Shown: piece by piece, positions 1,290-30,423 of the stretch
Layout of the letters: the number at the start of each line of letters is the position of its first letter
How positions within the stretch are numbered: the first letter of the stretch is position 1
Assembly (NCBI GenBank): GCA_018398765.1
Contig: JAHBMJ010000500.1
Coordinates: forward strand, 1 to 37,500
Reading direction: 5' to 3'
Length of the DNA stretch: 37,500 nt
Source of the DNA: Chromera velia
Lineage: Eukaryota > Sar > Chromeraceae
Notes under the pieces: generated by a model
Databases searched by the model: none
Seen by the model: the letters and a program-made list of their open reading frames with translations, nothing else
What the model was told of the DNA's origin: nothing
Translations under genes and position numbers: made by a program

Positions 1290-1530
1290 GCCTCAGTTGT
1301 GAGTTAGAGTCATGACAGTCTTAGAATGGAGATGTCAGAGGTGCCAGGGGTGACTGAATCTGACGTCATCCTCATAGGATCTGTATTATCAATCATATGA
1401 TACAGATACCTGCAAGACAGAGAAGGTTCATTATACCTTGTCATAATGTTAGTCTCTTAGCAGTCGTAAGGACCTTGCATATGAGAGTCCGTGTGTCTAA
1501 TAGTCGTCCAGATTAACCCATATTATTTCT
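1290..1530 (+). repeat. E1 5' LTR with preceding target duplication
   Basis: GCCTC duplication at 1290-1294, then the LTR at 1295-1530. The LTR should carry the element promoter and transcription start. The boundary was set by aligning it with 6622-6857 and by the matching GCCTC after the 3' copy. Confidence 0.88.
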
Positions 1531-1571
1531 GGTACGACGCCAGCGAGAGTAAAGGAGGTTTGGAGTAGGCT

Positions 1572-4500
1572 GTGCAAATGTCCGCAACGGATGGAAAGCT
1601 CGTCTTCCCTCTCTTTGTCGACAAACCCGATAAAGACTTGGCAGTTAATGAGGTCAATACCTTTTCGAGGTTTTACGACTCCTTCCTTTCGATTTTGGAT
1701 GGAAAAGTAGACCTTGACGGGGTGAAGCTGGATCGTTGGACATGCGACCAGCTGTATCGGTCAACAAAAGGACACCCCAGGGTAGGAGTGGTCATAGACA
1801 ATGTATTTCAGAAGAGGAAAGCGGGTGACTATGACGCTGCCAACGGAAGTACCGAGTACGATAAGTACAAAAAGGCCCTTATTGATGCCCTCAAGTCATT
1901 GGGGGAGGATAACGATGAAAAGAAACGCGATGAGGTAGAAAGAGAGTGGGAGACTTTCCCCGCATTGAGCAGATCAACTGGGACTGAGGTGATTAATCAG
2001 TATAGAAACCTGGTAACCCGTACCGATAGTCTCAAAGGGGAAGTTCCCATGAGGAAGAGGGCCGATGCTGTACTCAGATCCCTGTCCCAGTCAACGCAGG
2101 ATGTCTGGTCGGCAACTCTCATATCCGCACAGCTGAAGGATCCAGACGTACTCATTCAGAAACTCACTGAGATGTGCAAAACAGTACACGGAGATGAGTC
2201 TACCCCGCGGAAGGGGGGGCTTGCACCCAGGAAGCAGGGGGACATACGGGCCGTCATGAAAAAAGAGATTGCGCTGTTTGTTGGAGGTGGGATGGGACTC
2301 CCACGCAAAGAAAAACCCAACAACACCCGTCCCCCGAAGAAGTCAAACAACTCGTCTCAGCCGAAAGGCAACCCCGTCTCGAATTCCGAAAAGAAGTGTT
2401 GGCGTTGTGGTCGGAGCAGCTGCAAGAACCCCAGTACATGCGAATCACTCAAAGAAGGGAATGTGTGTAAGTGCTGTGGTCATCTGGACCACTGGAAGCC
2501 AACTTGCAGGTGCAGCAAGTGTATGGCAGAGAAGAATGCCGCCCCACCCAAGTCAAAGAAGAAACAAACAGTCAACCACGTTCGAGGAGATCCGGTTAAC
2601 CCGGGTAAGTTCGTCATCGGAGAGTATGATGTGCTCAACTTCCGCCCTTCCCCTCACACAGCGTTTGACTTCCAGCAATCATCGAACTGTGTCACATATC
2701 AGTGTACGAACTGTCGGCATGATGTCGGACAGGCCATGGTAGACACGGGTACCGAGAGGGGAATGGGGAATCGTGGGAGACTGCAGAGAGCTGGAGTTCT
2801 GGTTCGGGAACAGCCGTACTCCGCGCGCGTCAGCGTTGAAAAGCGCGACGGCGACGGCCGCCAAACGTCCGAGCGCGTTTGGATCAATGTCAATGGGATC
2901 GGTACCGTGATTCTAGAGAACGAGACGGGTGGGCTATTCCACACGTATCTCTACCTCACAGATGACGATGTTCCCACGTTGGTCACATATGATGCCTGCG
3001 CAGCGTTTGATAGGTCGGGTGAGACGCCATCGTACTTTGATGTGCGAAACGTCCGTGGCATTATACATCGCGTCACTGTTGATGCACCGAATGGCCACTG
3101 CTGCTCTCATATCCCTTCTTTTCCTCTCCCTGTCAATGCGAAGAAAAGGGAAGCAGAGTTCGACCGTGAGTGGGGTGGTGGTAGGCAGGCTCTGTGTGTG
3201 CAGCGTGAGCTGCGTCGTTTGGACATGGAGGAGGCAAGAGTTGAGCACAATCGTCTCGACATCCACTCGGGGGCTGAATATTTCCGTCTTACCCTCGAGG
3301 AGGACGGGAAGTCCATCACAGCAGCCATGGCAGCAGAGATTACTGCCACTTGCCGGACTTGCCAGCAGAAGCAGGCAGTCAACAAGTCGTTGAGGGCAGC
3401 GACTCGGGAGAAGAGCCGGAGAAGCAAGGTGAAGGAATTCAAGGATGAGGTATATTTGGACACGTGGTTTCCTGGGGATGAGGATGCAGAGGTCAGTGGG
3501 TTCCCGTGTGGGAATCTTTGGACAGATCTCCACACTCGTAGCAAGTTTAACACTCCGATGCGTGGCCGCCGCGATGCTGCAGATTCCCTGATGGATTGGA
3601 TCGATTACTACGGTGTCGTTCCTAAGAAGATCCTCACAGACAGGGCCCCTGAGTTGATTGGGGGTAAGTTTATCGAAACCTGCAGGTCGTTCAGCCCACC
3701 CATCCTCCCAGAAAGGGCCCCGACTGGAATCAAAGGGATTTTGGGATTCGCTGAGAAACCTATCCGCACTCATCGAAATCAGGTCAGGGTGGCTCTGGAC
3801 AGGTGTTTGGTTCCGAGTGAGGGGGGGAGATGGGGAGAGCGAATTCCCTATAGTCTTGCACACGAGATCAGCATAGCAGTAGCCATAGAAGGAGATGAGA
3901 TTGTCCATCCCACTGACAGAAAGAGTGCATATGAGCGGAGGACTGGGGAGAAACCAGATCGCAAGTTTGCGTTGGGGGATTGGGTTGTGATTCGTTACGG
4001 TCCTAAAGACCTTTCCCTCCCAGGCAAGCTTTGTATGTTTCTCTACATTTGGTCCCCCCGTATCGTAGCACTCTTGTACTACAATGCACAGAAACACCGC
4101 ATTCAGGTTCTCAACACACACCCTTTCCTCGTGGAGCCCTTGCATGATGGTCCACTTACGGGGTGGCGTATGGTGAAGAGAATTCTGGAGACCCCTGTGA
4201 AGGGAAGGCTTGTGTCTGGGGGTGAAAATGTGCTTTTGCCCTCTGCTCCGCAGGTTTTTGGTCAAAACCTTCCCGCCGCCCATCCACAGGGTGGTGGGGC
4301 TCCTCCACAGATCAGTGCGATTCAGAGGGGGGCAGCCGCTGCTCAAGAGGACGGGGGGGGTGCAGCAGGCATAGGAGGTGACGACCAGGATCTGAGGGTG
4401 GAAGTCCAGGCCGAGGTTCCACAGCAGGGAGCGGGCCCTCCAGGAGATAGCCAGAGGAAGTACACAGGTTTGCTTGTAGAAGCGAATGGCAGGCGTTTTG

Positions 4501-4625
4501 TGATGATGCAGACAGGGAAAGCATATCACAAGTCCATCCCTGCAGCATGGCTCCAGCCAGTGGGGGATGGGAGTGGGAAGTGGCGTGCAGAGGGAATAAC
4601 GCCCAATCCTATTTCGATTTCGTAG
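1572..4625 (+). CDS. E1 Gag-protease-integrase polyprotein (1017 aa)
   Basis: N-terminal about 1-230 is a copia-type capsid region. A CCHC zinc knuckle follows at C299-x2-C302-x4-H307-x4-C312, preceded by another Cys-rich stretch from about residue 277. The aspartic-protease motif is D391-T-G. An HHCC-like integrase zinc segment lies around residues 560-600 (His pair, then CRTC). The integrase core has D630, D690 and E728 (D-x37-E), so the DDE triad looks intact. The C-terminal part is Pro/Gly/Gln-rich linker. The frame closes with TAG at 4623, while RT lies in another frame that overlaps from 4547. The ORF is open for 3 kb, so Gag and integrase could still be expressed. The ATG is the first long-frame start, 41 bp after the LTR. 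Confidence 0.87.
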
Positions 4626-6589
4626 ACGACCGTCTGCCTGCCAAGATTGAATCCCAAGTCTCCCCAGGCCCCCCTCCGATTGGTGTCGGTCTGTCCGCAC
4701 AGCAGCAGGGTGTTGTGAATGAGGGGGTGCCGCCAGACGCAGGTGGGGATGCACCTGCAGCCCCTCACCCTGATTGTATTCCTCCTGATGACTCCTTGTT
4801 TAGTTCCGACCTCCTCAGAAATCCTCAGCACGAGGGGGGGGCAGAACAAGGGTCAGTGCATTCGGAATCGTTGGAGGCGCTGGCAGCCTTTGATTTCAAG
4901 AAAGGCTCCACCAACATTCCAGCAAAGGAGGAAGAGGTGAGGGAGGGGAAGTTCAATGAGGCGATGAGAGATGAGTGGCTCCAGAACATCTGCGGGCAGG
5001 AGGTGTTTGGGAGGGCGGTTCCGAGGGAAGAGGCCAAGATGGTGATGGATCTCGGCTGGAGGCTCACATAGAAGGAGAAGGAGGCAGAGAAAGGAAAGGG
5101 GAAGGAAGGAAAGAACGGAAGTCCGTCTCCCAGTCACTCTCCCCCCACAGCGACAAAGAGAGTGCCAAAAGCCCGATGCTTCGGGAAGGGCTTCCGGAAC
5201 AAAAGAAAGATCGATACCTTCACAGGTACCCCTGTCCCTGCTCTGATCTTTTTCTGCATGATCTGGGCACTCGCGTGTGCTTTGCAGATTTTTGTAGGGG
5301 ATGTGAAGGGGGCGTTCCTTCAGTCTACCGACACGAATGCAGAGAGAGTCTACGCACGCATGCCTGCGTGGATGCCTCCGATCCCAGACGTGTGCCCCTA
5401 TCCAGACATGAAGCCCGAGAAGTGGGAGAGAGTGAAAGAATACGCCAGATCTCTCTTGCCTGGACAGATCCGGGAGGTCGTTCACGGTCTCTACGGCATG
5501 CGTGTCTCGTCCAAACTTTTTGACAACAAGTGGGTTGGGACAACGGGACGGGCAGGGTTTGAGAGAATAGAGTTGGGGATTGCAGTTGATAAAGAGAAGA
5601 ATGTTCTCATCAATTGGATCGATAACGTTTTTGGCCTGATTGCTTTTGGGCAGGTTGAGGGGGTGATGCGACATCTGCAGGGGGAGATGGAGTTTAGGAA
5701 AATGACGAGGCTTGATATGGCTTCATATAAATTTAAGTATGCGGGAATGGACTTTGAAGGAGACAAAGGGGGGTGCAGAGTCTCGATGTCCTCGTATCTT
5801 GAGGGGGTGGACACAGACAAACTGTTCAGAGAATACAAGATCCCTCGGAGAGGAGTGGGGGGCACGTCTTCATGTAAAGAAAAGGATTTTCATCTGCAAG
5901 AAGGTGAGCAACCAGATCTGTCTCTGAAAGACATCTACAGCAGTGTGATCGGGTGTCTGGGTTGGGGAGGACGTCTCTCTCCTTTCTGTCATATGTGGTA
6001 CGATGTTCTTTCTCGCTATAGGAAGGCACCGACCCACACGCATCTCGCGATTGCTGTCAGAATCCTGTACGAAATCAAAAAAGATCCAGAAGGTCTGAAT
6101 TTCCGCTGTCTGTCTCGCTCTCCTCTTCTCAAGATGGTTTTCTTCATTGATTCCTCTCATGAGAAAGACACATACAAAGGAAGGCATGCATGGATTGCTC
6201 TTCTGGTTGATCATGCCTGGAAGTCAGGAGATGAATTGTTCAACATTTTTGCATGGCGTTCGATGCGTTCGACCGTCAAGCTGGGCAGCTCCACAGCTTC
6301 AGAGTTGGTTGGGTTTGAGCAGTGCCTCAAGCGTGTGCCTCGACTGATTTCTTTTGGCCGGAATTTTCAGAAAGACGTGCCCGTACAGTTCTTGATTGAC
6401 TGTAACCCTTTGCATGATCAGTTCAGATCGGGGGTGGCAGATTCAGACACGGGGATGCAGCATGTTCTCGACTGGTGCATTCAGAGATGCAAGCAATTGT
6501 CTGCCAGCGTTGTTTGGATCCCTCGTGAGATTCAGGCAGCCAATGCACTCACCAAGCCTATTGCTTTTGGTCAATCGATCTATGATTGA
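4547..6589 (+). pseudogene. E1 reverse transcriptase-RNase H, interrupted
   Basis: This continues E1 pol in the -1 frame relative to the upstream ORF. An open stretch runs 4547-5071, then a UAG at 5069 falls inside the RT N-terminus just before the KARCFGKGF segment (copia KARLVAKGF). RT motifs follow: GDVKGAFLQ (copia LDVKTAFLNG) and LYGMRVSSKLF (copia LYGLKQSPRAW). The catalytic YVDD box appears as WIDN (5615-5626), with Asn at the second Asp. RNase H is recognisable by FFIDSSHEKD, WRSMRSTVKLGSSTASE and the C-terminal NALTKPIA (copia LADLLTKPL). It ends at TGA 6587-6589. With a frame change, a stop and a lost catalytic residue I call it inactive. Recoding at the overlap is possible but would not repair the active site. 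Confidence 0.85.
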
Positions 6590-6621
6590 AGTGTGGATCG
6601 TTCGCCTGTCATGAGGGGGTG

Positions 6622-6862
6622 AGTTGTGAGTTAGAGTCATGACAGTCTTAGAATGGAGATGTCAGGGGTGCCAGGGGTGACTGAATCTGACGTCATCCTC
6701 ATAGGATCTGTATTATCAATCATATGATACAGATACCTGCAAGACAGAGAAGGTTCGTTGTATCTTGTCGTAATGTTAGTCTTTTAGCAGTCGTAAGGAC
6801 CTTGCATATGAGAGTCCGTGTGTCTAATAGTCGTCCAGATTAATCCATATTATTTCTGCCTC
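6622..6862 (+). repeat. E1 3' LTR with following target duplication
   Basis: The second 236-bp LTR copy (6622-6857) is followed by GCCTC at 6858-6862. The purine tract ending at 6621 marks the expected plus-strand DNA priming site. It differs from the 5' LTR by 7 transitions and no transversions. Confidence 0.88.
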
Positions 6863-6940
6863 CTTCATTCAAATGGAAAACTAGCTTGAACCTTGTTGAG
6901 GTTAAGTTTTTTAAGCCATGGGCTGAGTCTAGCCTAGAGT
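6863..6940. other. Short spacer between E1 and E3
   Basis: About 78 bp separate the two LTR elements. It ends with AGAGT (6936-6940), the target duplication of E3. No coding content. Confidence 0.7.
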
Positions 6941-7472
6941 TGATGATGACTTGTGAGTAAATGACAGGATCGGTAAAGGAAGAAACGGTACACTATGCTT
7001 TCAACTTCCAGACTGTAAGTAAATGCGTGACTGGAGTGACACTGTGTGTATAGAACTTGATAGAAATTGATTGTCAGGACCGAGATTGATGTGAATGGTT
7101 ATATTGCGCATCTGGGGTGAATGAGTTTGACTGACTTTCCCGCGTCCTCACGCGTGTGCGTATTTCGAGCCAGTATGGCGAGTCAGTAAAAAATTGATGC
7201 ATGCATGCATGCCAGTGAATTACACATGCTCGTATTGCAAAGTACGTGCTGTGCAACATTGTTGGAAGTGTTGTGATTGATATAGACAGACAGAATTTCT
7301 ATCCTCGTACGTGTAGGAAGCTCTTCATTGCTGGTTTCCAGCTTGTTAGACTCTAGTGGATTGGTTGCCAACCACAGTAGACAAAGACTTAATCTTATAA
7401 GCTTGCTTGCCAAGTGCTTTCCAGTCTAGCAACAGTTGTGCTTACTGCACAGTTGTCTAGATTTTTTCATCA
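6941..7472 (+). repeat. E3 5' LTR (532 bp)
   Basis: Direct-repeat partner of 9042-9342 plus 15587-15817. TG...CA termini. AGAGT precedes it at 6936-6940. Confidence 0.88.
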
Positions 7473-9041
7473 ATGGTGACGGAAGTGGGGGGTGAGCAGC
7501 CCTCCCTTCCCTGTTCAGTCTTCTTCATTCAGTCTCCATCTATCCAGTTGTCTGACTTAGTCTGAGTCGACTTGTCTTCGGTTGCAGTCTGTGAGTCGAG
7601 GTTGGATCGAATTCCCCCCGATAAGCAACACTTGTCGTCTGACCGCAGATCTTGTAGATTGTGCATCTGTGTCCTTCGAGACTGGAGCAGTCAAGCCAGC
7701 TCGATGAGAAGTGGAAACATTCTTTCGGTTTCTGTCTTTATTGTCTCTTGATGACATTTTGTATATCTTTTCATGGATTCGCTTCCCGAAGGTGTACGAC
7801 TGTATGGAGAACCGTCCTTCAACTTAGAGAATATCGAGCAGGTGATCAAGAACCAGAACCGAGCCATCATATTGCATCAGAGACTGCGTCCTCCGTTTCT
7901 TTGCTTGCATTCTACAGTGCCTGTTGATGTCCAAGAAGACGGACCTTGCACGTTGGCCTGTAAAGCAAGTAGTACGACATGTTTTTGTCGTGTACATGTT
8001 GGTGACTGACCTTTGTGTTACACAGTACGCATGTGTGCCTGTTTTCCTTCAATTTCCTTGGTTGTGCTTGTTTGTGGTTGGAGTTGCTTCATTGTGTGAA
8101 CCTTGGTGGGAAGAAGAGAGAGAAAAAAGACAAAAATGGAAACAGAGGAGGAAGAGGTGGAAGAGGAAGAGGAGGATCCTCAAGGTGGCACAGAGATCAG
8201 CAGAGAAGTGTAGAATATTATGCACAGGGAAGACAGCAGCAGCAGGAGCAAGGGCAGTCCATGTTTGCCTTTATAAAGCACGCCCTGAAGTCTGCTTTGA
8301 AGGAGGCGCCAACAAAGGAGGAGTTTAAGAGAGCTGCACACGATCGCGAGTTCTAGAAAGAGAATGACGAGGGATTTGAGAGTGCATGAAGAAAAGAAAG
8401 AGATGCATGGATGCCGCGATCTCTGTCCCTCTCCGTTTTAACATATCACAGTTAGTACATAGAATTAAACTCTTTTCTTTGCACCATCTGAACTTGTGCT
8501 TCTTTGTGTCTTCGTGCTTTGTCTTTGTTTTTTGCCTGATGCAATCAGACTGCATTGGTGAGAGAGAGTTCACTGCACGAACCCAGGAAGCCGGTAAAAA
8601 GATTGGGCTATTGAAAAAACAGAATCATTAAAAATATACTACGTGCGTCTCTGTTTGTTTCTTGTCTCAAACGGATGCCGTGAGAAAAAGAAGAAGCAGT
8701 GTCGTTCACACTGGTTACCGTATGACAAACACACTTCACTTACTTCGATTTCGGATGCCGAATCACTAACAAAACAGAGAACAGAGAACAGAGAGCTGAG
8801 TTGAGACCCAGAAATGAATGAATCGGTTGCCGACATGAACTTTGACCTTATCTCATTCCAACCTTATCTCATTCCCTCACTTCATTCACGTTGCTCTCTC
8901 TTCACGTTGCTGTCTGCGTTTCCGTCTCTTGTGTTAATCTGTGCCTATGCCTGTGTTTCAGTGCGTCATGTGAAAGAGAAGGAAACAATTAAAGGGGGAA
9001 TGTAATCATGCGCACTCCGTGCAAAAAGAAAGAGATGCGTT
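7473..9041 (+). other. E3 interior, without recognisable pol
   Basis: 1569 bp with a candidate primer site at its left end and a purine tract at its right end. Several short ORFs occur (7661-7927, 7773-8009, 7924-8328, 8015-8356). None matches a retrotransposon domain I know. The most protein-like stretch is the RGG-rich 8015-8356 ORF, listed separately. Confidence 0.6.
8015..8356 (+). CDS. Possible RGG-rich small protein within E3 (113 aa)
   Basis: Not recognised. The N-terminal 30 residues are hydrophobic/Cys-rich and may not be real coding. From about residue 31 the sequence becomes basic (KKREKKDKNGN), then an RGG-type run (RGGRGGRGRGG), then a Gln-rich stretch and a charged helix-like C-terminus ending AAHDREF. 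RGG boxes are common in RNA-binding proteins, so an RNA-binding or Gag-like role in packaging is conceivable, but that is inference. Two overlapping ORFs upstream in other frames (7773-8009, 7924-8328) might contribute through splicing or frame change. I could not define clean splice sites. Confidence 0.25.
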   Translation: MLHSTHVCLFSFNFLGCACLWLELLHCVNLGGKKREKKDKNGNRGGRGGRGRGGSSRWHRDQQRSVEYYAQGRQQQQEQGQSMFAFIKHALKSALKEAPTKEEFKRAAHDREF

Positions 9042-9342
9042 TGATGATGACTTGTAAGTAAATGGCAGGATCGGTGAAGGAAGAAATGGTACACCATGCT
9101 TTCAACTTCCAGACTGCAAGTAAATGCGTGACTGGAGTGACACTGTATGCATAGAACTTGATAAAAATTGATTATCAGGACCAAGATTGATGTGAATGGT
9201 CATGGTGCGCATCCGGGGTGAATGAGTTTGACTGACTTTCCCGCGTCCTCACGCGTGCGCGCATTTCGAGCCAGTATGGCGAGTCAGTAAAGAATCGATG
9301 CATGCATGCATACTAGTGAATTACACATGTTCGTATTATAAA
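9042..9342 (+). repeat. E3 3' LTR, left part
   Basis: First 301 bp of the E3 right LTR, cut by E2. The last five bases (ATAAA, 9338-9342) are the left copy of the E2 target duplication. The LTR resumes at 15587. Confidence 0.88.
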
Positions 9343-9673
9343 TGAAAAGCCCCAATTCTTACAGACCAGTGAAGATCTATGCAGGAGTTGAGGTATCTCA
9401 AGGTGCACAGAATTTATTGTGTGTGTTCGTTGTTCATTCAACAAGGCAATTCACTACTTGACTTCAAACTGTCTTCACTGATCGATCTTCTACTTGCATG
9501 CTTCGATCAACTGAAAAGCATGTACTTGCATGCATCTAATTGAATCGCATTCGCTGTTTAACGCACGCAAGGACTCACGCCGACGCACGCAAATGCACGC
9601 AGGGACTCACGCCGACGCACGCATGCTTTCTGTCATCTCGGCTCATTGACTGACTTCAGGTTGGTTCACAACA
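9343..9673 (-). repeat. E2 3' LTR (331 bp)
   Basis: Left copy of the LTR pair. Includes short internal repeats of the ACGCACGCA type around 9560-9625. Purine tract on the minus strand immediately inside. Confidence 0.9.
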
Positions 9674-9720
9674 TACATTCTTTTCTTTTTCTTTTCTTTC
9701 ATACATGTAAAAAAAATAAA

Positions 9721-11845
9721 TCATAATACAATGGCACTCGAACCAAGAGAAGGGTCACAGAAAGGATGAGAGGATAGGTTCGTGAAGAAAGGAAGGAGTA
9801 AAGAGATGGACATAGGCTTGGTCAACAAATCGGCAACATTTTCTTCTGAGGGGACAAAAGAGAGGCGGACTGAGGCGGCTTCGAAGGCGTCTCGGAGTGA
9901 AAGGGTGTCAGTGAAGGACAAGGGTATGAAGGGAACGTTCGAGGACTCCCAATTGCAGAGACTGGATGACTGACAGAAGGGCACGCTCTGTCGGTCGGGG
10001 CATCTCACTGGAAACAAGCTTTAGAAGGTCATCAGAATTAACTCTGACCTCTGAAACTATGCCTGCTTTCCAGACACATCGGAGGGCTGGCAAGAGACAC
10101 TCTAAAAAGTCAACCAAGTCATGAGCAGTGTACAGTTCGGCCCTTGTGGAAGAGCGCGCTACACGCTGTTGCGAGAAGGATCGCCAATGTAAGATGGCAG
10201 ATCCTAGGCTGAGGAGCCAGCCTGTCTGGAGGTGGGCGTTGCCTGCTGTTCCTAGAGCAGCATCACTCCAGGAGATGGGGTGAATGACGGAGGAGGTAGA
10301 AGGGACATCGGAATGAGAGATTTTGATGACACGGGATGTGGCTGTGCGACGGGCATAGCATAGGAGGGAAAGTAGAAGGTCTGCATCAGCAGTTGAAGGG
10401 GCAGAAGCGTGGCGGCTGAGTTGGTTACGCCCCTGCGCTAAGTCAGGGCGGGTATCACGTGTAACCCAAGAGAGACACCCAAGTCGTTCTCTGAAGGAGC
10501 TGGCGTCTTTTGCTGATAGGAGGGGGGAGGGTTCTTCGGGGATGTCTCGAGAAGAAGAAGGAAGAGAGAACAATATGGAAGACTCGCCCTCACCGTTTGT
10601 GTCTGTTGAGGGTGCTTCCCCTATGCCTTCTGGGAGGGGAAGAGAGAGGAGATACTCTGTCTGATGGATGGTGATGGAGTCTCTCTTCAGCTCAAAATTC
10701 ACCCCTGCCCAGCGCAGGCTGCCCTTGTTAGGTTTGGTGATCTTCATTTCATACCCCCCTTTTTGAGCTATCTCGCGTGCTAGTTGCACAGCAGACCCTC
10801 CAATTGGAATGATCGCAAAGTCGTCAACGAAAGTGGGAAGGAGGCTAAGGTCCTAGAGCCGGGAGGAGGGGGCCTCTGGCTTTCCTGTCCATTTTCACCA
10901 TACCCCCCGGATTGGTGAGGGTACCCAGCCTGCAGCTGCGAGGGTTTTGTTTCGGGAACGGTCCCACAAGTTTCCTGAATCCTTCATTCCGTAGAGGGCA
11001 CGCTTCAAGCGCCAGAGATACTTGCCGTAGTCTGGATGGTCCTTCGGGGGGCGGACATACACGCAGTCGGATCGAAGGGCTGTCAGGTAGGCGGTCTTCA
11101 CATCTGCTACGATAATTTCACGGGGATCGAAATCTGCGTGTGCAAATACCATTGCCAATGCACAGCGCATGGCCCACTGCGAAGCGGTGGCATACGATGT
11201 CGTAACCCCCTCTCTGCGATCAAAAAACGGTGACCCGTCTGCGACTACTCTGGACTTGAAATCCCATTCTCCCGCCTTCTGTCTCTTCATTGTGTCAACA
11301 AAATGGGTGGGGATTGCAGAGCGGGCGAGTTGCTCCGGCACTTCAGCAATGGGGACGCAATCGTAGACATCGTTCTCAGATAGGGAGAAGAGCTCTTTCT
11401 CCCAGGAAGCCGCGCGGCCTTTAAGCTGCTCTGGAGACAAACCGTGGCGAGGGAGAGGGGTGTGGGTTGTGGCTGCTGAGCAGGCGCCTACAGAACCCTC
11501 ATCTTCATCTGCGTTCCACAGAAATATAGCGGCAGACGGTTCTGTCTCAGGAGCATCGGAGGCATTCTCAGGTAAGGGAGAGAACAAAGTAGCCATGGCA
11601 GCTTGGGAAGTAAGGGAGTCAAAAGAGAGACGGTCTATGGGGAAACATGTGTCATGACTGGCAAGCAGGACGCTTTTGTACGTCTGACACACATCGGGGG
11701 GGAGACGGCCCTCAGGAGTGAGGGCTGTTCGCTCAACAACCTCCTCAGGAATGAGGTAGCAGAGTTCCGGTCCACAGCCTGCAGGCTTCTGTGGGGAGTA
11801 CAGCAGCTTGGGTCGGCCACGCAAGGGGCACCAAGCAGGCTGCAT
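9721..11845 (-). pseudogene. E2 reverse transcriptase-RNase H, interrupted
   Basis: RT begins in the same frame. Motifs are ADVKTAYL (motif A) and LYGMKDSGNLW. TGA (10897-10895) and TAG (10855-10853) follow, then the catalytic box FVDD (minus strand near 10825-10836) with both Asp present. RNase H follows from 10789 (SWSDAALG, WRSFSQQRVARSSTRAE, VNSDD). A frameshift between about 9950 and 9910 moves the C-terminus (VPSEENVADLLTKPM, the canonical copia ending) into another frame (10017-9721). Motif order and spacing are copia. The active-site residues survive but the reading frame does not. Confidence 0.86.
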
Positions 11846-19512: not shown

Positions 19513-20079
19513 GAAAGTGAGAAAGGATTCCCTGACGCCACGAGCACCCCCCGACCCTCCCAAAATTTCCCTTTCCCCCCTTCCCTTTGTGAATCAAATC
19601 ATGAGCACGGCATAATGCAGGCATGCAAACCAGCAAAAGTGTCGAATTTCCCGCATGCACCCTTTGTCTTCTTCTTCACCTTTGAACCTGCTCCCAAACA
19701 GACGGCCGTACAGACAGACCCATGGTTTCTTTCTTATGGTATTGCCCGAATTCGATTTATTTAGTTCCTCTGTATTTCTTCTTGTCCCTTTCTCTACTTA
19801 AACAGACCGGCCAGCCAGCCTCCCCCCTTTGCTCAGCACACAGAAGGAGACTGACGCACCAAAAACATAAACAAAACAGTTAACTTAAGGTGGTTTCCTT
19901 CTTTTCTTTCACCCTCCAATTGCACGACCACACACCCTCCCATCTTGATGCCAGACTTCGATCTGATTGTTTGTTTGCGATTGATTCGGTCGACCGACCA
20001 GTCAGTCAGCTGACATGACGGACCACCTTCCTCCTCCTCCTCCCCTCAGCGCACACCCTTCCTTCCTTCCTTCCTTCCT
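17277..20079. other. 2.8 kb without a recognised gene
   Basis: Contains poly-A/poly-T rich blocks at about 17840-18005 that can fold on each other, and a (GA)n tract at 19481-19504. Pyrimidine-rich, coding-like but unrecognised ORFs occur on both strands (for example 18224-18502 and 18493-18744 on plus, 18126-18449 on minus). None shows a domain I know. The part near 20079 probably includes the 3' UTR of the GTPase gene. Confidence 0.5.
20051..20079. repeat. (CTTC)n tract beside the GTPase stop codon
   Basis: Seven or so TTCC units directly downstream of the stop codon (20080-20082, minus strand), so it would lie at the start of that gene's 3' UTR. Confidence 0.8.
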
Positions 20080-22376
20080 TCACGCATCGTGGAAGAGGTT
20101 CGAGATCCGTCCGAGTCCCTTGGTGCGTCCCTCCCTGAACAGGAGGGGGAGGTCGAGAACCAGGTACTCTGCGTTGTACATGAATCGGAACCGGATGCGC
20201 CCCTTGTCGCCTGTGCGCAACAGATCTCCCGAGAGGCACTTCACCTGCAATCGACGGGGGGTGGGCAGAAAACGGAGGAGAAGGAAATGGTCCTCGAAGA
20301 GAAAGCGACGCAAGAGAGGACAAAACAGGACAAAATAAGGAACCAAACGGCTGTGGAATAGAGAACAAGTGAGAATCTTGTTCCTCCTTTAGATCTACGT
20401 ATGTGTGCATGAACCGGCTCAAAGGACAAGAAGGGCACGCCAGAGGGGGTACGGAGGGGAATGCACAGCTAGGTTCACAGGTGTACAGAAAAAGGGCTAC
20501 AAGGCAAAAAGAAACAAACAGAAGTGCTGATCAGCCTAAGAGTATGAGACGAAAACACGAATTCAAACAACAGAAAGAAAAAATGTACCTGAGCAGCCTG
20601 GCGGATCACTCCACAGTGGATCACTGCCTGGTATCTCTCCTTGATCGTCGTGGCGTGGTGAAGAATCACGACCTCCGCCTCGAACTCCCACGTTGCCTTG
20701 GGCTGTATGCCTCTGTCGAGGAGCACCATGCCCTTTCTGAAAGCTGCTCGCTTCAGGGTGTCCTTCTTCATCAGGGACCGCAACGCGAAGGATGCGGCCT
20801 GACCAGACACCACCTTGGGCACTGGTACTCTCTTGGAATGGACAGAACGAACAAGAACGGGTTTGAAGTTCCCCGACTTGTCGGGCCCCAACAGCAACTG
20901 GCTGTTGTTTTGGATAGTGCCTGCCTTCATGGTGCCTGCAACCACCACCCCCACCCCCGTGACTTGGTACACACCGTCGATGTGGAATTCTGCGGGATCG
21001 GTGGGAGGACGGAAGTTTCCGGATTCGCGTAACCTGTTGGCTATCTTGAAAAGGAACTTGCGTACGAGATCTAGTCCCTCCCCTGTCACGTTGGACACAG
21101 AGAATATCGGGCAGACTCGGTCACATGCTATTGAGGAAGCGGCTGCTTCAATGTCGTTCTCGTCCTTCACCATCAGGGGCAGCTTCTTGGCTGCAGTTCC
21201 CTTCAGGATCTTCTGCAACTGGGCAACGCTCTGCTTGTACACATTCTCCGGGGCTATGTCGACCTTGGTCAATACAACGAAAAACGGCACTTTCAATGCG
21301 AGGGCAATACCGAGGTGCTCTCTAGTCATCCTCTGCACCCCCATGTTTGCCCCCACGACTATCATGGCATAGTCGGGGCACAGACCAACGAGACCGAAGA
21401 TGGTGGTCTTCAGATACCGCTCGTGACCACAAAGGTCCATGAAGGTGATGATACGCGCGGCATTCTTCACAATCGTCCCCCACGTGTTGTTTCTGCTCGC
21501 AGCAGTCACTGCAGCCGCAGAGGACGAGCTGCCTCCACCGTGGTCAGTTTGCACCTGCACACACGGTAGTGCAAAGAAAACATGTGTACAGACAGTCACG
21601 GGTCTGCACGGGAAATGGGAAACAGGCAGGAGCGAACGGAAACGGAAACGGTGGAAGAGCAGGCAGAGCCGCTGGTCGGGCAGGGCAGAACCCAATGAGA
21701 GCGGACGCTTGGGGGGGGGGAAGAAGATGCAACTACATTCGTATGGCTCCTCTCGCGACAGGGAAGGTTTTTGTCGCGACGGGAAGCAGGACAGAAACAG
21801 AGATCGACATTTGGACCGGCGGCATGTGTAGACAATGGCAGACCGGCTCTTTCAGAGCGAGAGACAACCATGCACACGCAAACCAACCTGACTTCCGTCC
21901 TGATGGAACCCGATGATCTCCTGAGCAATCGAGGAAGTCCTCCCGTTTGCCTGTTCGTGCACAAAGTTGAATACCTTCCCTCTCGCTAAACCACGCCCGT
22001 CGTCTAGACAGCTCTTGGTGAGAACACCAACGAGAGTGCTCTTCCCACTGTCTACATTCCCAATCACCGCCACCTTTATGTCTTCAGACAACCCCTCCAA
22101 TTCCCCCCCTAAACTCCACTCATCATGCTCATCCATTTCTGCATAGGCAGCAGCAATCCCTTCCTCAGTTTCTGCGGAGTGGTTCTCTTTGCCGGTCTCG
22201 TCCATGGACTTTCCGGGGCCCTCCTCCGCCTTCCCTGACTCTTCTAGTGATACTGGCTCGTCCATCGGGGGAAAACCCTGATGGGCCACTGTAGAAGAGG
22301 AAGCATCCAGACTTTCACAGTCTGGTAATGATGGGGAACACTGGTCGTCTGGACGTATCCTGTCGCTGTCAGACAT
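20080..22376 (-). CDS. GTPBP1-like: GTPBP1/GTPBP2-family translational GTPase, three exons
   Basis: Exons 22376-21888, 21554-20589 and 20244-20080 give 539 residues ending at TGA. Both introns (333 and 344 bp) are GT-AG and phase 0. Residues 1-100 are acidic and unconserved-looking. The G domain has the P-loop GNVDSGKST (106-114), a GRTSS switch-I segment near 145-149, DLCGH (203-207, G3) and TKVD (259-262, G4). The C-terminal third has the elongation-factor-like beta-barrels ([10 protein letters not shown]-type, then GQAASFALR). It closes with [10 protein letters not shown], characteristic of GTPBP1/2. Exon 3 restores the LRTGDK segment, which confirms the splice model. Family members are EF1A/eRF3-related GTPases linked to ribosome rescue and mRNA turnover in the cytosol. 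Human GTPBP1 is longer at its N-terminus. No close neighbour gene is visible. Confidence 0.93.
20245..20588 (-). other. GTPase gene intron 2 (344 bp, phase 0)
   Basis: Donor CAG|GTACAT, acceptor GATTGCAG|GTGAAG. Splicing joins IRQAAQ to [15 protein letters not shown], matching the family's C-terminal barrel. CAGGT again at both borders. Confidence 0.88.
21555..21887 (-). other. GTPase gene intron 1 (333 bp, phase 0)
   Basis: Donor CAG|GTTGGT and acceptor TGTGTGCAG|GTGCAA on the minus strand. Reading frame matches on both sides, and splicing joins the switch-I region to the G3 motif as in GTPBP1. CAGGT occurs at both borders. Confidence 0.88.
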
Positions 22377-23756
22377 TTTGCAGACAGCAGAAGCGTCTCT
22401 TCAGGAGGAGACAAAACTCTGAGGGCTCTTTCCCGACTTTCAAATCCAGACAGCGAATCAAGACAAGAAGCAACTCAAAAACCACGGTTGGGCCAGAGTC
22501 ACCGGATTCAGTTTCTCTCTCTCTTCAGGAAAATAAACCTCGCAGGCAGCTGCAGGGTTGAAATGCAAGCAAGTACACAAGGGAGAAGTGGTTTTGTAAC
22601 GCTGTCCCTCCAAAAGAAGGAAGAGCCGATTTGTTTAAGGAAGGGAACTTGAATGAGGAGACCAACTGCATGGGTTTTCTGACCGTAATTTCATCTCACC
22701 GATACATTTCTTTTGCCGGGGTCCTTAACCGGGCCGCTACGAGCGCACCTTTCATTCGTGACCACGGCATGCCACACAATTTTTCCGCTGGGCCCCCATC
22801 ACACTTTGGGTACGTGCCCCCCACACCACACGCGCGGTCGAATTCGTTGTCGCAACTCCGTGCGAATGGTCGAGATTTCAGCGATCTGCACAGATTAATG
22901 CAGGTTAACATAGATCTACAAAACCCTCAATCATCGATCTGCAAAAAGGGGGATCTGCAATAGTATAGGGCACTGAGAAATAGGCAGAAATAGGCAGAGC
23001 TGTACAGAGTTGATCTTACCTAATTTTAACGATATCTAGTGATGCAAGCTGGTACCAGGTGGATTAGCGTTTTTCACTACTTTTGACGTATAACATTTTT
23101 TATTGTGTATGCTGTAGTATGCTACATAATATCGTGTTTTATATATGAGGGAGGGATCTAACCTAGTTTATCAAAAGGTTCCATTTTTTTCTGTTAGTTT
23201 CGAATCTAGAAAATGAATAAACTAGGTAAAACTGGGTTGACTCCGCTCTACTCTACTATACCCCGCATCCTCTCAAAACCCCGTATATATGGATATGGCA
23301 TACATATATTTTAATATCTATTCACATTAAAACATATCGAACCTTCAATCATCTTGCTGTAATAGCTCGTAGTAACCTTAGAACTTAGTAACCTAGGTAG
23401 TAGCCCACACTCTAACATGTTCTCACATTGCTTTGACAATCTTCTCTGACAAACTCCAACAACATACATGTTTATAGAGTTGACCGTTAACAGTCACCAT
23501 TGACTAAACACCGTGCTACATATTTTTTCCCCATAGAATTATAATAAGCTGCCCAGGAGCTTAGCGCTCCAACTGGGGTTAAGCACCCTTAGGGACTCTC
23601 TAACTAACTCTAAGTAGGAAACACGTATCCAGACATATTATTTTTTAAAAAGATATTTTATTTAAATTTAAAAATTATAGCAGAGGTAAAAATTGAGTCT
23701 CATGGTAATACATTGTATTCAAAAAAAAAACCTGATTGCAAAAAATATGAGAGATG
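22377..23756. other. Upstream region of the GTPase gene, then AT-rich DNA
   Basis: 22377-22960 should hold the 5' UTR and promoter of the minus-strand GTPase. I see no clear TATA or other motif. 22961-23756 is AT-rich with no long ORF and nothing I recognise. Confidence 0.5.
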
Positions 23757-23990
23757 AACCTCCCTGAACCTAAGTACCACTTAAAAAAAAATAATCAAGA
23801 TGGTTTCTATCTGCGGCATTGTTTTTCAAAAGACCGTCCACGCTTGCGGCGTATACGGTCAAGACACCGTCCAGATATACGGCTGTGGCTTTCAAGACAC
23901 CGTAAATAATCCGCGCCTGCGGCGCGGACTTTCAAGCTTATCAAAAAATACGGCTTAAACTTTCAAGTGGTACTTAGGTTCAGGGAGGTC
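23757..23990. mobile_element. hAT-type MITE (234 bp, 8-bp target duplication)
   Basis: Perfect 24-bp inverted arms at 23759-23782 and 23965-23988 (core CCTCCCTGAACCTAAG), near-perfect out to 23757 and 23990. GAGAGATG is duplicated at 23749-23756 and 23991-23998. An 8-bp duplication is the hAT signature. The interior is non-coding and contains degenerate subrepeats of the TTTCAAGACACCGT kind and a GC-rich hairpin (CCGCGCCTGCGGCGCGG). It would need a transposase from elsewhere. Confidence 0.82.
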
Positions 23991-24416
23991 GAGAGATGCT
24001 TAGAGATGATGAGAGTGCACAAATCTTGTTTGGTCCATCGAAGGCAGATCGAAGGCGCATCAAAGGCATACATAGACGGGAGGGGTATAGAGGGGTACTG
24101 TCGATCATCTTTGTCAAATCCCCGTATGTAAGAACAAAGTTTGCACAACTGAAGGGGCGGAGAATAAAATTTTTAAATGCAATGACTGGCACCCACCCAG
24201 CCAGGCCGCCCATGAACGAGAGAGAATTAATTGATTGCTCAAAATTGCAAAACAGTGACATAACAGTGACACACGCCTTTACTTTCTTCTGCATACTCTT
24301 CTCTCATTGCAGGGATGTAATCTTTCACGTTTGTCGGCATGTTTTTCTCTGTCTCTGTCCGCTTATTCCCCACGAGCATGACTGCCTGCCCTGACGAACA
24401 CCATCTGTTGCCGATC

Positions 24417-25923
24417 CTATCGCATTTGTTTCTCTTCTTCCCATCTTATAAGTTTGTCACAAATGGTAAAAAATTTGCAGCCATGTCTTTTCACCTTCTT
24501 CTCGTCCTTCATGCCTCGCCAGTAAACCTTCCCCCCGCATTCCTTCGCATACAGAAGCACACGTCGCAGCCTCTTCATACCTCTTGTTGAGCCAGCTTGC
24601 ATGACCAACTGTGATTTACCAAAAGCAGTGCAGTTGAAGACGTTTGTTGCCAGCGCTTCCACTACCAGTGAAGCAGCGTTTGGAACCTGCCCCCGAGAGG
24701 CAGAGCAGCCCGCAGTCTCTTCACTGTTGTCACGTACAGTGTGTGCAGAGCGGCGAGGAGTCTCTTCACCGTCGTCACGTGCAGTGCGTGAAGAGGGACT
24801 CGCATTAGGGCGGTTTTTCTGCAAGAAACAAGAGAATCACAGTTTGGTTGGGTGTGGCACAAAAACAATTTAAAGGCGCACGGAGCCCAAAAAAAGGAAT
24901 CAAGCTTTACACATCAACCTTTCTAAGACTTAAAGTTCCCCCTTGTTTGTTTAATTTTCTTCTTTCTTTAAACTTTCGTAATCTCCCTAGCTCTGTTTCT
25001 TTTCTTTTCTTTGCCTTCCTTCCTTGAAAAAGCTTCTTCCTTCCTTCCTTCCTTCCTTCCTTCCTTCCTTCCTTTCTTCCTTCCTTCCTTCCTTCCTTCC
25101 TCCTTTTTTTCTTTTTTTCTTTTTTTTTTTTCTTTCTTTCTTTCTATTTTAAATTGTTTGCACGTCTGTCTACCTGTCTACCTGTGGAAGGGTACCAGAG
25201 CTCCAGGCCTTAAGCGTACTCTGCGGCCCTTCTTTGCCCAGTGCAGGCTTCTGCCTTTGCACTTCTACTTTCTTTCCATCTGGACGTGTTCGTTTCCTTT
25301 CAGACAGAAAGACAGACAGACAGACACTTAGTCATCAAATCTTGGTGTTTTCACTTGCAAAAACACTCATGTTTTTAGCAATATAATTGCGACAGAAAAG
25401 AAAGACAGAAGGGCAGATAGATATGAATGAATGCACAGAGACAGGCAGAAAGGACGAAAGTAAAAAAAGAGCTCGCCAACGAACCTCTCGGCAATTTCCT
25501 TATTACGACCGTGCGGCGTCTCTTCTCCTCCAGTGGATTGTCGACCTGCAAAACGGTTTGCGACCCCTAAGGCGAGATTTGAGATGAACAGATCGTCGAT
25601 CTCTCTTTCTTGAAGATGAGTAGCTGTTTTAAGGACGGCAACGATTCAAGGTGACAGCAGGCAAGTCGGTGTAAGCCGGGGTAGGTCGAAACGAATGAGG
25701 ACATCCTTCCTTTGTGTACGTACACGTGAATCTCTGTGTGACAGGCTGGTTAGAACATGTTGGGACACGTACATGAAAGGACGAAATGACAGGGCAGGCT
25801 GCAGTCTGCTCTCAGACTGAAAGATGGGGAGATGTGCGGTGCTTCTTTGCCGCTCTCTCTTGCTCTATTCTCTAGCTTTTTTCTTCATGCACTGACCTGG
25901 ATGGTCTCACCGACGTCCGTCAT
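24417..25923 (-). CDS. Possible spliced host gene, partial model
   Basis: Not recognised. ATG at 25923-25921 follows an in-frame upstream stop and encodes MTDVGETIQ, ending at CAG|GTCAGT (exon 1 lower limit 25897). A 351-bp intron ends at TTTTGCAG, and exon 2 (from 25545) continues in phase 0 as VDNPLEEKRRRTVVIRKLP. Beyond that the text turns intron-like, with an AGAG|GTTCGT donor candidate near 25483. Further down, a TTTCTTGCAG acceptor at 24819 precedes a 134-codon open stretch (24818-24417). This is Ser/Arg/Glu-rich, then basic (KRLRRVLLYAKECGGKVYWRG). I cannot join that stretch to exon 2 in frame with a convincing donor, so an exon may be missing or they may be separate. RRRTVVIRKLP loosely recalls an RRM first strand. 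That is only a hint. Confidence 0.35.
25023..25145. repeat. (CTTC)n / poly-pyrimidine tract
   Basis: Long TTCC array (about 25033-25100) running into T-rich TTTC sequence. It lies in a putative intron of the minus-strand gene model. Confidence 0.9.
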
Positions 25924-27332
25924 CGAGACAGTGGGGGCCAGGACAAGGAGCAGTCATGCGAGGAGTGAGGAAGGGGGGGCTGTCGGAAGCGACTCGGATG
26001 CGTTGGTGTCTGCCCCTGGAATGATGGATACGTCGGCTGCCAAATGCGGCTTTTTTCTGTGTTCGAGAAAAGGGGATTTCGCAAGGAAAGAAACACCGCA
26101 CCGCAGGTAACGAGGCGAAAAGTGTTTTCTCATACGCTTTGCTCATGCATGATCACTCGATCCTCGATCATGCAATATTAATATCATTCGTTCATTCATT
26201 TTCTCATCGATATATAAGTACATTTAAAAATGCATATATATATACATGAGACGCTATAAACAGAGTAAGAGAGTTTAGCGTGTTGCATCGCGCATGTTGC
26301 AAATTGCATGCATGCGCATGTTGCAATGATCATCCGCGCGTGTTGCACAACTATATATATACCCCTGCCCTTGAATTTGGCTATGGGGGGGCGGTCTATC
26401 CTAGACAATCTTTTGACCCGTCGGGCCAGCACCCCCAAATACCCCCAAAGACGGTCCGGTGCAGTTAGTCTTGGGTACCTACATACATTAAACAAACAAC
26501 AGTATGCCGTCTCCAATAATTCAACTGGGATGCTCGTATACATTCACAAGAAAGGCGAGGGGGGGACACACTGACCAGCAAGACACGCACATACGGCCAA
26601 AAGGGCCATCCCTCTCTACGCAATATAATTATACTACTTTCGACAAAGAGAGAGCAACCAATCTTCAGTCAAAATGCTGGCCTGTGTTTGTTCCCCCCTG
26701 TTCATAAAGCAGGCAACACATGAAAAATCGAACCCTAAAAGTCGATATTTTCATAAAATAACCTGCGGGAGTTTTCCGGAAAAGTCAAAGGACTACAGAA
26801 CAACACTTCAAAGAATCAAAGAAGCCGTCTATCATCTCTCACTTCAACAATTCACACAGAAAAGAAAACAAACTCTGACTAAGTCTGATTGGTTGTTAAT
26901 ACATGTACGCATGATTCAAGTATAGTAGGTCCCTGGCGTAGAGGCCCGGGCCCTGGCATGAGTACTCTGTATTAGAGGCCCGCACGTACATTTTTTTCCC
27001 CCATAGTCAAATTCAAGGGCAGGAGTTTATATAGCGTGCATGCATGCATGTGAAAATGCGGTTATTCTATAGCAGGACTGAGTATTTTATCACACGATCA
27101 CCCCTGTCATAATTATCGATACGCGCGTGCAACCTCACGAATGCATGTGGGCCCTTTTCACGCGCCGCTGCACATATGCATGTACATACAGGTCAGTCAG
27201 AGCTCAACTCAACCCTGAAAGTCGAAGTCCAAAATAGAAGAAAAAACTAAGAGAATATATACTTGCAGTAGCAATATGAAGTGACTGTCTAGAATGAACA
27301 GATGATGTAACCATTGAACTGAACATATAATA
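25924..27332. other. Mostly non-coding, AT-rich
   Basis: 25924-26150 may include 5' UTR of the minus-strand gene model. 26170-26370 has TATA and GCATGCATGC-type simple motifs. 26930-27000 has an AGAGGCCCG motif repeated. No gene recognised on either strand. Confidence 0.5.
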
Positions 27333-27799: not shown

Positions 27800-28116
27800 A
27801 GTTGAACTATAGGGTCCCAGCATCCCAGCCTGCTGTGGGCCGTGAGTCGCACGTCTGGACCTACCGGGCCGAGCGTTCGAGGCCAGCCACGGGGTAATCG
27901 CTTCCATGCAAATTCGATTGATCGCCGCGCGCATTCGCGCACATACCATTTTCCAAGTGCATACCAGGTCTTGTTGAGATCAGATCTTACTAAATTGATT
28001 CGTGAGTTGATCTAGCGACCTGTCCCTTTGAATATAGACTTTCCATCAAGAACTCTGACAGGATGACCTGCCTCTAGCGGGCAGTATGCATATTCGCTCT
28101 CTTTTAGGTCTCTAGT
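27800..28116 (+). repeat. E4 5' LTR (317 bp)
   Basis: Starts AGTTGAACTATAGGG, ends GGTCTCTAGT. TTAGT precedes it. Because the following base is also A, the boundary could slip by one. Confidence 0.82.
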
Positions 28117-28187
28117 GCGGTTAACAGGAAGGTCTGTCTTCTCTTTGTGTTCCTTTCTGAACAACTGCTGTTATATCTTGTCATCAG

Positions 28188-29692
28188 ATGAATCCTTCCA
28201 CTTCTTCCAATCTGAAGTTCACTTCTGACAAGCCGCCACAAAGGCAGTAAGTCAACTTGTCTGAAGTTTATCTTGAATTGCTTCAACTGTGGGCTAAGGA
28301 GTATACCAGCTATGCTGGACTCCGAGAGCTCAAAGGAGCGATCGACGGCGATCGAGGTTTCTTCATTCCTCGTGAACAGGGCCCTCCAAAGACGGACTGT
28401 GTCTCTGGCTTCTGATCCTCAATATGTTCTTCCGGTTAGGCAGGCTGGCAAGGAACTTGTAGACTTTGAAGACCGTCTTTATGACTGGGCAGAGAAGTTT
28501 TTATAGACCCTCTCTGGCGACAATACGCAGCTTTCTCTGGACCTCTAAAAAGAGACGGCGTGGGCAACCTTCGAGTCCTTCATCACCCTCATCACCGAGA
28601 TCACACCTGTTGGAGTTGCGCTCTCTCTGTCCTTCAAAGAGAAGTACTTTGCCTACAAGGAGTTGCTTACGGATTTGAAGAGCCGGTCCCTGGAGCCCGC
28701 CGATTTCGTCATGGGGGTCAAGTTCTGGTCTTTCCTCCCTGAAGAGATCAAGGCCCTTGCCCGGCGCACCAAGCCGAAGAAGCAGGTTGGAGGTACTGGC
28801 GATCCAGTTTCTGTCAAGCACAGCTGGAAGTACATGCAAGAGGTCATCGAGGAGGCCATAGCAACCCTGGACCAGAAGCACACCTGCCTTGAGTGGGTTA
28901 CATCCGTTTCATCTGGAGTTCTCCGTCTTTGCAGCTCCAGCGACACCTATGTGAAGAAGAGGGAGATTGAGGTTTCCAAGTACCACAAAGACAGGGCACA
29001 TGACAGCACCAGCGGGTCCTCCGGTGCCAGTCTTGAGCAGTTGATTGTTGCGACTGACCTTTCCAGGGATATTCAGTCAATGGATCTTGAGAAGGTCCAA
29101 ATGCTCACCGACTTCTCTCGAAAGTGGAGTGAGAAGATGAAAAGTTCAGGCTGCGGGAACATTGGAAGAAGCAACAACCGGAAGAATCGACAGCAGAGGC
29201 AGCAGCAGTCCCATCAACTTTTTTGAAGGGCAGCAGCAGTCTGATGACAAACAGCAAAGCCAGTCTTCCCAGTCTTCAGGCCAGAAGGGGAGGCAGTCTC
29301 TCTTCAAGGCTGACATCGATAGCATTGCTTCCACGATGTTGAAGATACAAGAAGATAAGAAAGAAGGGGACAGCAGCAGAGAGACAGCAAAGATAACCTG
29401 GAAGAAAGTGAGAATGGCAGTGACATCCTGTGAAGCAGAAACCAACGAGGCCATTCGCTATGGCGGCGGCTTTGTTAATATGGTGTTCGAGCAGCCTCCT
29501 GCCTGGATCCAGAGTTTGCCAATCATAGAATACTCTGACACAGAGCTGGAGGAAGATACTCCAGCTATCGAGGGTAGGACAGACACTGAGGAGACAGAGG
29601 GGGGGCAGCAAGGGGAGCCACGTCGGATTTTTGATATGTTGAATCCTGCCGATCAGGAAGCATGGATGGCTCGCTTTGCAAACTGTATATGA
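28188..29692 (+). pseudogene. E4 Gag, interrupted
   Basis: ATG at 28188 gives MNPSTSSNLKF and reaches TAA at 28248 unless a 52-bp intron is removed (28247-28298, GTAAGT...AAG). Removal would restore the next frame. That frame runs through about 29226 with TAG at 28504-28506 and TAA at 28546-28548. Its sequence (WATFESFITLITEI, FKEKYFAYKELLTDLKS, FVMGVKFWSFLPEEIKALA) is helical and Gag-capsid-like. No zinc knuckle is visible. Near 29160-29226 a second ORF (29162-29692, +1 frame) takes over with Gln/Ser-rich, then acidic sequence ending FDMLNPADQEAWMARF and TGA. I take the whole as one decayed Gag. No known family match beyond general Gag character. Confidence 0.6.
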
Positions 29693-30106
29693 ATTTCTTT
29701 TCTTTCCGTTGCATGAGCCTTATTCCTCAAGAAAGGATCCGAAAGGATCGAAATTTGAACATGCATTAATCCAATGACATATTGGAATGAAAGATGACTG
29801 GTTGTTTTTGTGCATACAGTGTGTGTGACTGTAATTCCGCCTTTGAAGATGATCGGCTACTTGCATTGCTGTAATTCCGCCTTTAAAGATGATCGGTCTG
29901 TTGTACACAGAAAGTCATACTGTATAATTCCGCTCTTTCTCCATGATTGCTTTCATTTGATTCCTGTTGAGAACTTAAAGTAAGAACAAGGGGGTTGAAG
30001 CCTTCGAAGCGCAGTTAGTTAGAGCAAGCGGCTGTTTCTTCCCTTTGTATTTCTCTCTTATGTTTCGATTTCGTTCTCTTTGCACAGAAACGTAATCGAG
30101 GGGGGG

Positions 30107-30423
30107 AGTTGAACTATAGGGTCCCAGCGTTCTAGCCTGCTGTGGGTCGTGAGTCGCACGTCTGGACCTACGAGGCCGAGCGTTCAAGGCCAGCCGCGGA
30201 GTAATCGCTTCCATGCAAATTCGATTGATCGCCGCGCGCATTCGCGTGCATGCCATTTTCCGAGTGCATACCAGGTCTTGTTGAGATTAGATCTTGCCAA
30301 ATTGATTCGTGAGTTGATCTAGCGACCTGTCCTTTTGAACACAGACTTTATATCAAGAGCTCTGACAGGATGACCTGCCTTTAGCGGGCAGTGTGCATAT
30401 TCGCTTTCCCTTAGGTCTCTAGT
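30107..30423 (+). repeat. E4 3' LTR (317 bp)
   Basis: Same length as the 5' copy, with a G-rich purine tract directly before and TTAGT directly after. Confidence 0.82.

Follow-up and report, generated by a model that had tools for sequence, protein, structure and literature searches.

The two long terminal repeats (LTRs) of one retrotransposon are a built-in mutation recorder, and LTR pairs usually show two to four transitions for each transversion. Two described systems come closest to the record reported here: the C>T decay, after insertion, of transposons that carry 5-methylcytosine (5mC) in plants and vertebrates, and repeat-induced point mutation (RIP) in filamentous fungi. Whether apicomplexans methylate cytosine is disputed, with DNMT2 as the known candidate for the enzyme; for Plasmodium falciparum, which has DNMT2 only, the available part of one report describes low-level, mostly non-CG methylation (0.13-0.19% of cytosines, CG not prominent) and a suspected further methylating enzyme (PMC10164579). 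Some retrotransposons carry a cytosine methyltransferase of their own, according to the available part of another report (PMC5890265). In this study, we have examined a 37,500-nucleotide stretch of a Chromera velia assembly (contig JAHBMJ010000500.1 of GCA_018398765.1, positions 1 to 37,500; hereafter the window) that holds four LTR elements, E1 to E4 (Table 1). Post-insertion change in these four LTR families is one-way, from C to T, and its preferred contexts are CpA and CpG. Among the titles and abstract openings listed by searches of the open-access literature, no chromerid report of such C>T repeat decay was seen.

Within the window, the four LTR pairs sum to 78 transitions and 4 transversions (78/82; P = 4e-10 against 2:1 and P = 1e-4 against 4:1). 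An earlier note on this DNA had counted 79 transitions among 83 differences; our recount bears out the bias, and the figures given there for E1 (seven) and E2 (five), all transitions, and for E4 (25 of 27) came out the same. For E3, where 42 transitions and two transversions had been reported, we obtained 41:2 (transitions:transversions) in the family alignment or 40:2 with the two halves of its broken LTR aligned separately, and so the dominance of transitions stood while the exact total did not. Four further repeat pairs of the window gave 25:1, 16:0, 16:3 and 10:5; the first three belong to a cluster of direct and inverted repeat pairs at 32517-37143, perhaps nested elements, which the earlier note had not listed.

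The wider alignment of LTR pairs that the earlier note had suggested was run for the four families of the window. In the assembly (177.8 Mb, 4040 contigs), the matches, with the window's own included, numbered 37 for E4, 26 for E1, 20 for E3 and 18 for E2. Those of E4 resolved into 30 loci, of which 25 were aligned and 16 copies formed eight pairs; for E1, 22 were aligned and 20 copies formed ten pairs; for E2, 11 were aligned and six copies formed three pairs, with one further aligned case (C3453, 16:1 over 214 bp) left out of the pair count. The E3 matches comprised three of the window's own, 11 others that were aligned and six partial ones that were excluded. Same-contig pairs, window included, gave 93:10 in the E1 family, 35:2 in the E2 family, 41:2 for the single E3 pair and 173:10 in the E4 family. 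Together, the 22 pairs amount to 342:24, or 14:1 (95% interval 9-23), far from an ordinary ratio of 2; transitions make up 93.4% of the differences (interval 90.4-95.8%). Two of these pairs, on C3527 (E2) and C15 (E1), are spaced by 0.3-1.2 kb and may not flank whole elements.

The direction of change was read by setting each differing site against the votes of the other copies, with at least 70% agreement. Resolved changes (C>T, T>C and transversions, in that order) were 147, 6 and 9 in E4, 88, 2 and 7 in E1, 33, 1 and 1 in E2, and 29, 2 and 2 in E3. The four families thus hold 297 C>T, 11 T>C and 19 transversions among 327 resolved changes, a total from which 34 unresolved changes and five at alignment ends were excluded. 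With 90% agreement, E4 retained 78, 6 and 7 (92 unresolved) and E1 60, 1 and 6 (36 unresolved).

These changes depend on the base that follows the cytosine. In the three families covered by the context table (E1, E3 and E4; E2 was polarised only), the C>T rate was 9.1% at CpG (78/856), 8.0% at CpA (125/1573), 2.7% at CpT (39/1440) and 2.2% at CpC (22/989). The next-base effect has P = 9e-18, and cytosines before a purine (CpR) are favoured over those before a pyrimidine (CpY) with an odds ratio of 3.5 (P = 6e-20); an effect of the previous base was not detectable in the same families (P = 0.54). By context class, E4 changed at 8.2% in CG, 5.2% in CHH and 4.8% in CHG; plant-like CHG methylation finds no support in this family, where CHG does not exceed CHH. 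Known members of the APOBEC/AID family act in the previous-base contexts TC, CC or WRC. Editing by such a deaminase of single-stranded element DNA, during reverse transcription or in R-loops, would account for one-way C>T change in elements, but the lack of a detectable previous-base effect speaks against it, as does the presence of both C>T and G>A in 15/16 E4 copies. The context resembles the preference of a methyltransferase and is unlike that of APOBEC/AID. The earlier note had read the bias as cytosine deamination, with methylation, a RIP-like process or a deaminase as its possible source; once polarised (297 against 11), the cytosine reading is well supported, and the deaminase part is disfavoured by a strong next-base effect that comes with no detectable previous-base effect.

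A high-copy repeat of the window provided an independent sample. It probably spans 15819-17745 as one repeat with a reverse transcriptase, to judge by a YMDD motif spotted by eye in the frame 16539-17276 (the Pfam match to RVT_1 had E = 0.23 only), and the part listed in Table 1 was compared with the best 39 of 1512 candidate copies, so that strongly mutated copies are absent from the sample. Where at least 85% of copies agreed on a site, the 40 copies carried 567 C>T, 84 T>C (17148 sites) and 74 transversions, which is less extreme than in the LTRs. The order of contexts seen in the LTRs was repeated, with C>T rates per 1000 of 66.5 at CpG, 60.2 at CpA, 28.6 at CpT and 14.8 at CpC, and the previous base made only small differences in this repeat (40.8-50.6 per 1000). 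Its CpG rate is about 13 times its T>C rate, which comes close to the factor known from 5mC decay in vertebrates. Among these best-matching copies, the number of C>T changes per copy had a mean of 14.2 and a variance of 14.8, which is Poisson-like; both C>T and G>A occurred in 40/40 copies; and strand clustering was absent in this repeat (273 same-strand neighbours against 264 +/- 11 when shuffled). Even counts per copy and the absence of strand clustering favour gradual, independent hits. The absence of strand-coordinated clusters, here seen in the high-copy repeat only, and the mixture of both strands in every copy are further points against an APOBEC/AID-like deaminase, which we consider very improbable.

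The pattern is real, directional and bound to context, and it spans four LTR families and, less strongly, one high-copy repeat. As the assembly is a draft in 4040 contigs, an artefact of assembly, alignment or counting had to be weighed, but four LTR families, spread over many contigs, agree in the direction of change, and two independent samples agree in next-base context. The divergences also fit the nesting of the elements: E2 (window 9338-15583) is inserted inside the 3' LTR of E3, which for this reason lies in two pieces, and its LTRs differ by 1.5% as compared with 8% for the interrupted E3, in agreement with the insertion order that nesting demands. We find an artefact scarcely credible.

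A RIP-like process would recognise duplicated DNA, for example before meiosis, and turn its cytosines to T with an enzyme preferring CpA and CpG, as a genome defence outside the fungi. It would fit the near-pure C>T change of the LTR pairs on both strands, with CpA as one of two preferred contexts, and CpA/TpG is given as the fungal RIP context in the available part of PMC12543289. The ratio of C>T to T>C is larger in the LTRs than in the high-copy repeat (few T>C events being involved), which leaves room for an active process. Against it, the counts per copy are Poisson-like and show no bursts, in a sample from which heavily mutated copies would be left out, and CpG is mutated as often as CpA (9.1% against 8.0% in the LTRs). 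Between 5mC decay and a RIP-like process, the even counts in the high-copy repeat favour gradual decay.

Host genes served as controls. Recent duplicates of light-harvesting (LHC) genes (335-617 bp, 96-99.8% identity) gave 17:6 (617 bp), 10:2, 10:4, 5:1, 5:1, 4:1, 2:2, 1:0 and 0:1, values that are mutually non-independent; an older LHC pair gave 31:25 and a histone-family pair 35:40. The LTR pairs differ from the 17:6 pair with P = 0.005, and the E4 pairs from the histone-family pair with P = 4e-17. In the non-coding flank of a duplicated LHC gene, tried as a control, homology stopped after a further 83 bp, with 28:10 over 699 bp. The LHC copies L116 on C2574 and L134 on C1809 differ at 1/529 bases and represent either a duplication of very recent date or the allelic end of a contig. 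The earlier note had held that an equal bias in single-copy DNA would make this a general mutation spectrum; the gene duplicates, few and mostly coding, have near-ordinary ratios, which goes only part of the way towards settling the point. That repeats are mutated while the few host gene duplicates are spared can be set to the credit of a RIP-like process, but recent LHC duplicates of this length and identity also lack a comparable bias, in small counts of coding sequence, where duplicated DNA would be the target. Organelle DNA in the nucleus offered no control, as no PF00124 (psbA/psbD) match was found in the assembly, which is expected if plastid DNA lies outside it. A search with window 17000-27300 for a haplotype copy that could serve as neutral control listed one partial copy, three short matches and the end of the repeat; these belong to the best 39 of 1512 candidates, among which the window's own copy is not listed, and neither uniqueness nor the absence of a second haplotype follows.

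Older changes within the families offer another comparison. In E1, changes common to both LTRs, which are mostly older than the insertion, comprised 19 C>T, 1 T>C and 12 transversions as against 90, 2 and 10 after insertion (P = 0.001). Between elements, in comparisons that draw repeatedly on the same copies and lack independence, the ratio was ordinary in E1 (2717:877 = 3.1) and rather low in E3 (median 4.5, range 2.6-16; 60 of 77 comparisons between 3 and 6). These values bear on the possibility that C>T at CpR is the main mutation throughout the nuclear genome, masked in genes by selection or biased conversion. Such a general spectrum is compatible with controls that were mostly coding rather than non-coding single-copy DNA, and with a CpG observed/expected ratio below 1 in 10/10 stretches of the window (0.68-0.86). 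However, the rates in E1, E3 and E4 imply an equilibrium GC of 4%, whereas actual GC is 47% in the window, with no 2.5-kb bin under 41.6%, and 45% over 221 kb of retrieved loci; ratios run from about 5 down to 0.9 in gene duplicates and the histone-family pair, whose divergence is similar; and the E1 elements differ among themselves by the ratio of 3.1 just given. We hold a general spectrum to be an unlikely account.

The gene content of the assembly, with 58 profile rows for light-harvesting proteins (PF00504), 12 for histones and 11 for alveolin (PF12314), indicates a photosynthetic alveolate host; the alveolin model is not exclusive, since it also matches in Caulobacter. For cytosine methyltransferases (PF00145), four rows below E = 0.001 were obtained on three contigs. 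DNMT2/tRNA-C38 methyltransferases are the best solved relatives of a 626-residue frame on C3982 and of a split gene on C1092. On C675, a C-terminal exon matched DNMT2 only weakly (E = 0.035). The genome thus has two DNMT2-like genes, one being the 626-residue frame (L072, 1000-2880) and the other seemingly interrupted by an intron that contains dinucleotide repeats (L073, 1441-2115, and L074, 520-1707). Relaxing the threshold to E = 10 gave eight rows; of the four new ones, two are further stretches of the C3982 frame and two stayed under the cut-off. For a third methyltransferase, on C675, and a weak hit on C788, scans of 4586 and 501 bases showed neither a PCQ nor an ENV motif and a single ENP tripeptide. 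No RID/Masc1-type methyltransferase was recognised in the eight rows, two of them below the cut-off and unassigned. The search works exon by exon, and another methyltransferase may therefore have been missed. The exons found being DNMT2-like and none recognisably RID-like, a RIP-like process loses further ground, and we regard it as improbable. As in fungal RIP, C>T change in repeats is near-pure here and CpA is among the preferred contexts; unlike in fungal RIP, the sampled counts per copy are even, CpG is equal to CpA, the few gene duplicates are spared, the host is an alveolate and no RID-like gene was recognised.

The reading that we favour, and hold to be just on the probable side, is CpG/CpA methylation of transposons followed by gradual deamination. 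One-way C>T change, next-base dependence and the involvement of both strands in inserted elements are best fitted by methylation and subsequent deamination. Once inserted, LTR elements, and at least one high-copy repeat besides, would have their cytosines modified, most likely to 5mC at CpG and CpA and less so at CpT and CpC; modified cytosines would then deaminate to T slowly, independently and on both strands. The enzyme could be of the DNMT2 type or another one that was missed. To judge from mutation patterns, the modification would be 5mC, and its targeting to transposons, rather than a genome-wide spread, is likely but not proven. The pattern shares with the 5mC decay of methylated transposons C>T change after insertion, on both strands, gradual and dependent on the next base, and differs from that decay elsewhere in that CpA is as strong as CpG, E4 lacks a CHG preference and the excess reaches about 14:1. 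As in DNMT2-only eukaryotes, to go by the available part of PMC10164579, DNMT2-like genes are present and non-CG sites are involved; unlike in P. falciparum as that part describes it, CpG equals CpA and repeats bear a large mutational footprint. The link between methylation, retrotransposons and expected CG loss recalls the methyltransferase-carrying retrotransposons in the available part of PMC5890265, with the difference that Pfam scans of E1, E2 and E4 frames gave no methyltransferase domain.

Several results weigh against methylation followed by deamination. The contrast between inserted copies and evolving lineages is seen in only two of the four families. In E4, changes present in both LTRs (21 C>T, no T>C, no transversions) show no contrast with those after insertion (147, 6 and 9; P = 0.22), and the between-element ratio is high in E4 (7252:551 = 13) and in the main E2 group (8-24); that these elements differ among themselves by the same transition excess is what a general spectrum would predict. 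Few gene controls were available, most of their sequence being coding and under selection; ratios of 5:1 occur in some recent pairs, and in the main LHC pair only eight changes could be polarised, four of them C>T. The CpG observed/expected ratio is 0.68-0.69 in E1, E4 and the E2 and E3 interiors and 0.69-0.86 in other stretches of the window, so that the two ranges overlap. Singleton alleles of the high-copy repeat come close to an ordinary spectrum (71 C>T, 51 T>C and 59 transversions by site), and alleles in at least two copies number 178 C>T, 12 T>C and 12 transversions; the excess of C>T in the latter could reflect either recurrent mutation of hot sites or common descent. Finally, no canonical DNMT1, DNMT3 or DNMT5 was recognised in the exon-by-exon PF00145 search, in which split genes can be missed.

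With regard to the elements themselves, E2 is a Ty1/copia LTR retrotransposon, with two LTRs around a match to RVT_2 (10895-11881, E = 4.4e-12, over the Pfam cut-off); Integrase_H2C2 at 11882-13216 stayed under it (E = 0.007). For E1, Pfam rve reached only E = 0.15 in its frames, under the cut-off, and the copia assignment is weak, though LTRs are present. An E1 alignment begun 9 bp earlier, at 1286, gains one transition and three C/G differences, and because of these extra C/G differences upstream of 1295 the stretch from 1286 was taken as outside the LTR. E4 is probably non-autonomous, and its frame at 28549-29226 had no Pfam match. Apart from the repeats, window 20475-22400 on the minus strand holds a host gene of at least two frames that resembles a GTP-binding translation factor (GTP_EFTU).

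Table 1. LTR elements and other repeats of the window (positions within the window; differences between paired repeats as transitions/transversions).
Feature	Position	Strand	Remarks
E1 5' LTR	1295-1531	+	237 bp; 7/0 against 6622-6858
E1 interior	1532-6621	+	Two long frames, 1569-4625 and 5072-6589; copia-like by eye only
E1 3' LTR	6622-6858	+	Aligned pairwise with 1295-1531
E3 5' LTR	6940-7473	+	534 bp; 41/2 against the split 3' LTR
E3 3' LTR, first half	9041-9337	+	Broken by E2
E2 LTR	9342-9673	-	332 bp; within the E3 3' LTR; long frames of E2 on the minus strand
E2 interior	9674-15249	-	Ty1/copia-type; RVT_2 reverse transcriptase match
E2 second LTR	15250-15581	-	5/0 against 9342-9673
E3 3' LTR, second half	15584-15818	+	Beyond E2
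High-copy repeat, part	17000-17745		At least 39 other copies at 92-97% identity
E4 5' LTR	27800-28116	+	317 bp; 25/2 against 30107-30423
E4 interior	28117-30106	+	2 kb
E4 3' LTR	30107-30423	+	Partner of 27800-28116
Further repeat pair	33202-33540 with 35273-35616		25/1
Further repeat pair	33537-33692 with 36988-37143		16/0

In conclusion, the LTR pairs of this organism, whose lineage is probably close to apicomplexans, have recorded a one-way C>T process in CpA and CpG context. If the modification is 5mC, these LTRs would be an easy place to look for it in a group where cytosine methylation is disputed. We also entertain, tentatively and as something we think doubtful, that repeat-directed mutagenesis at CpA and CpG is at work, either as an independent counterpart of fungal RIP or as the strong mark left on DNA by an enzyme of the DNMT2 type; if mutagenesis is active, it would be a genome defence otherwise described in fungi. 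In addition, the dating of LTR insertions is biased by this process, and clocks that assume ordinary substitution would misdate the insertions studied here.

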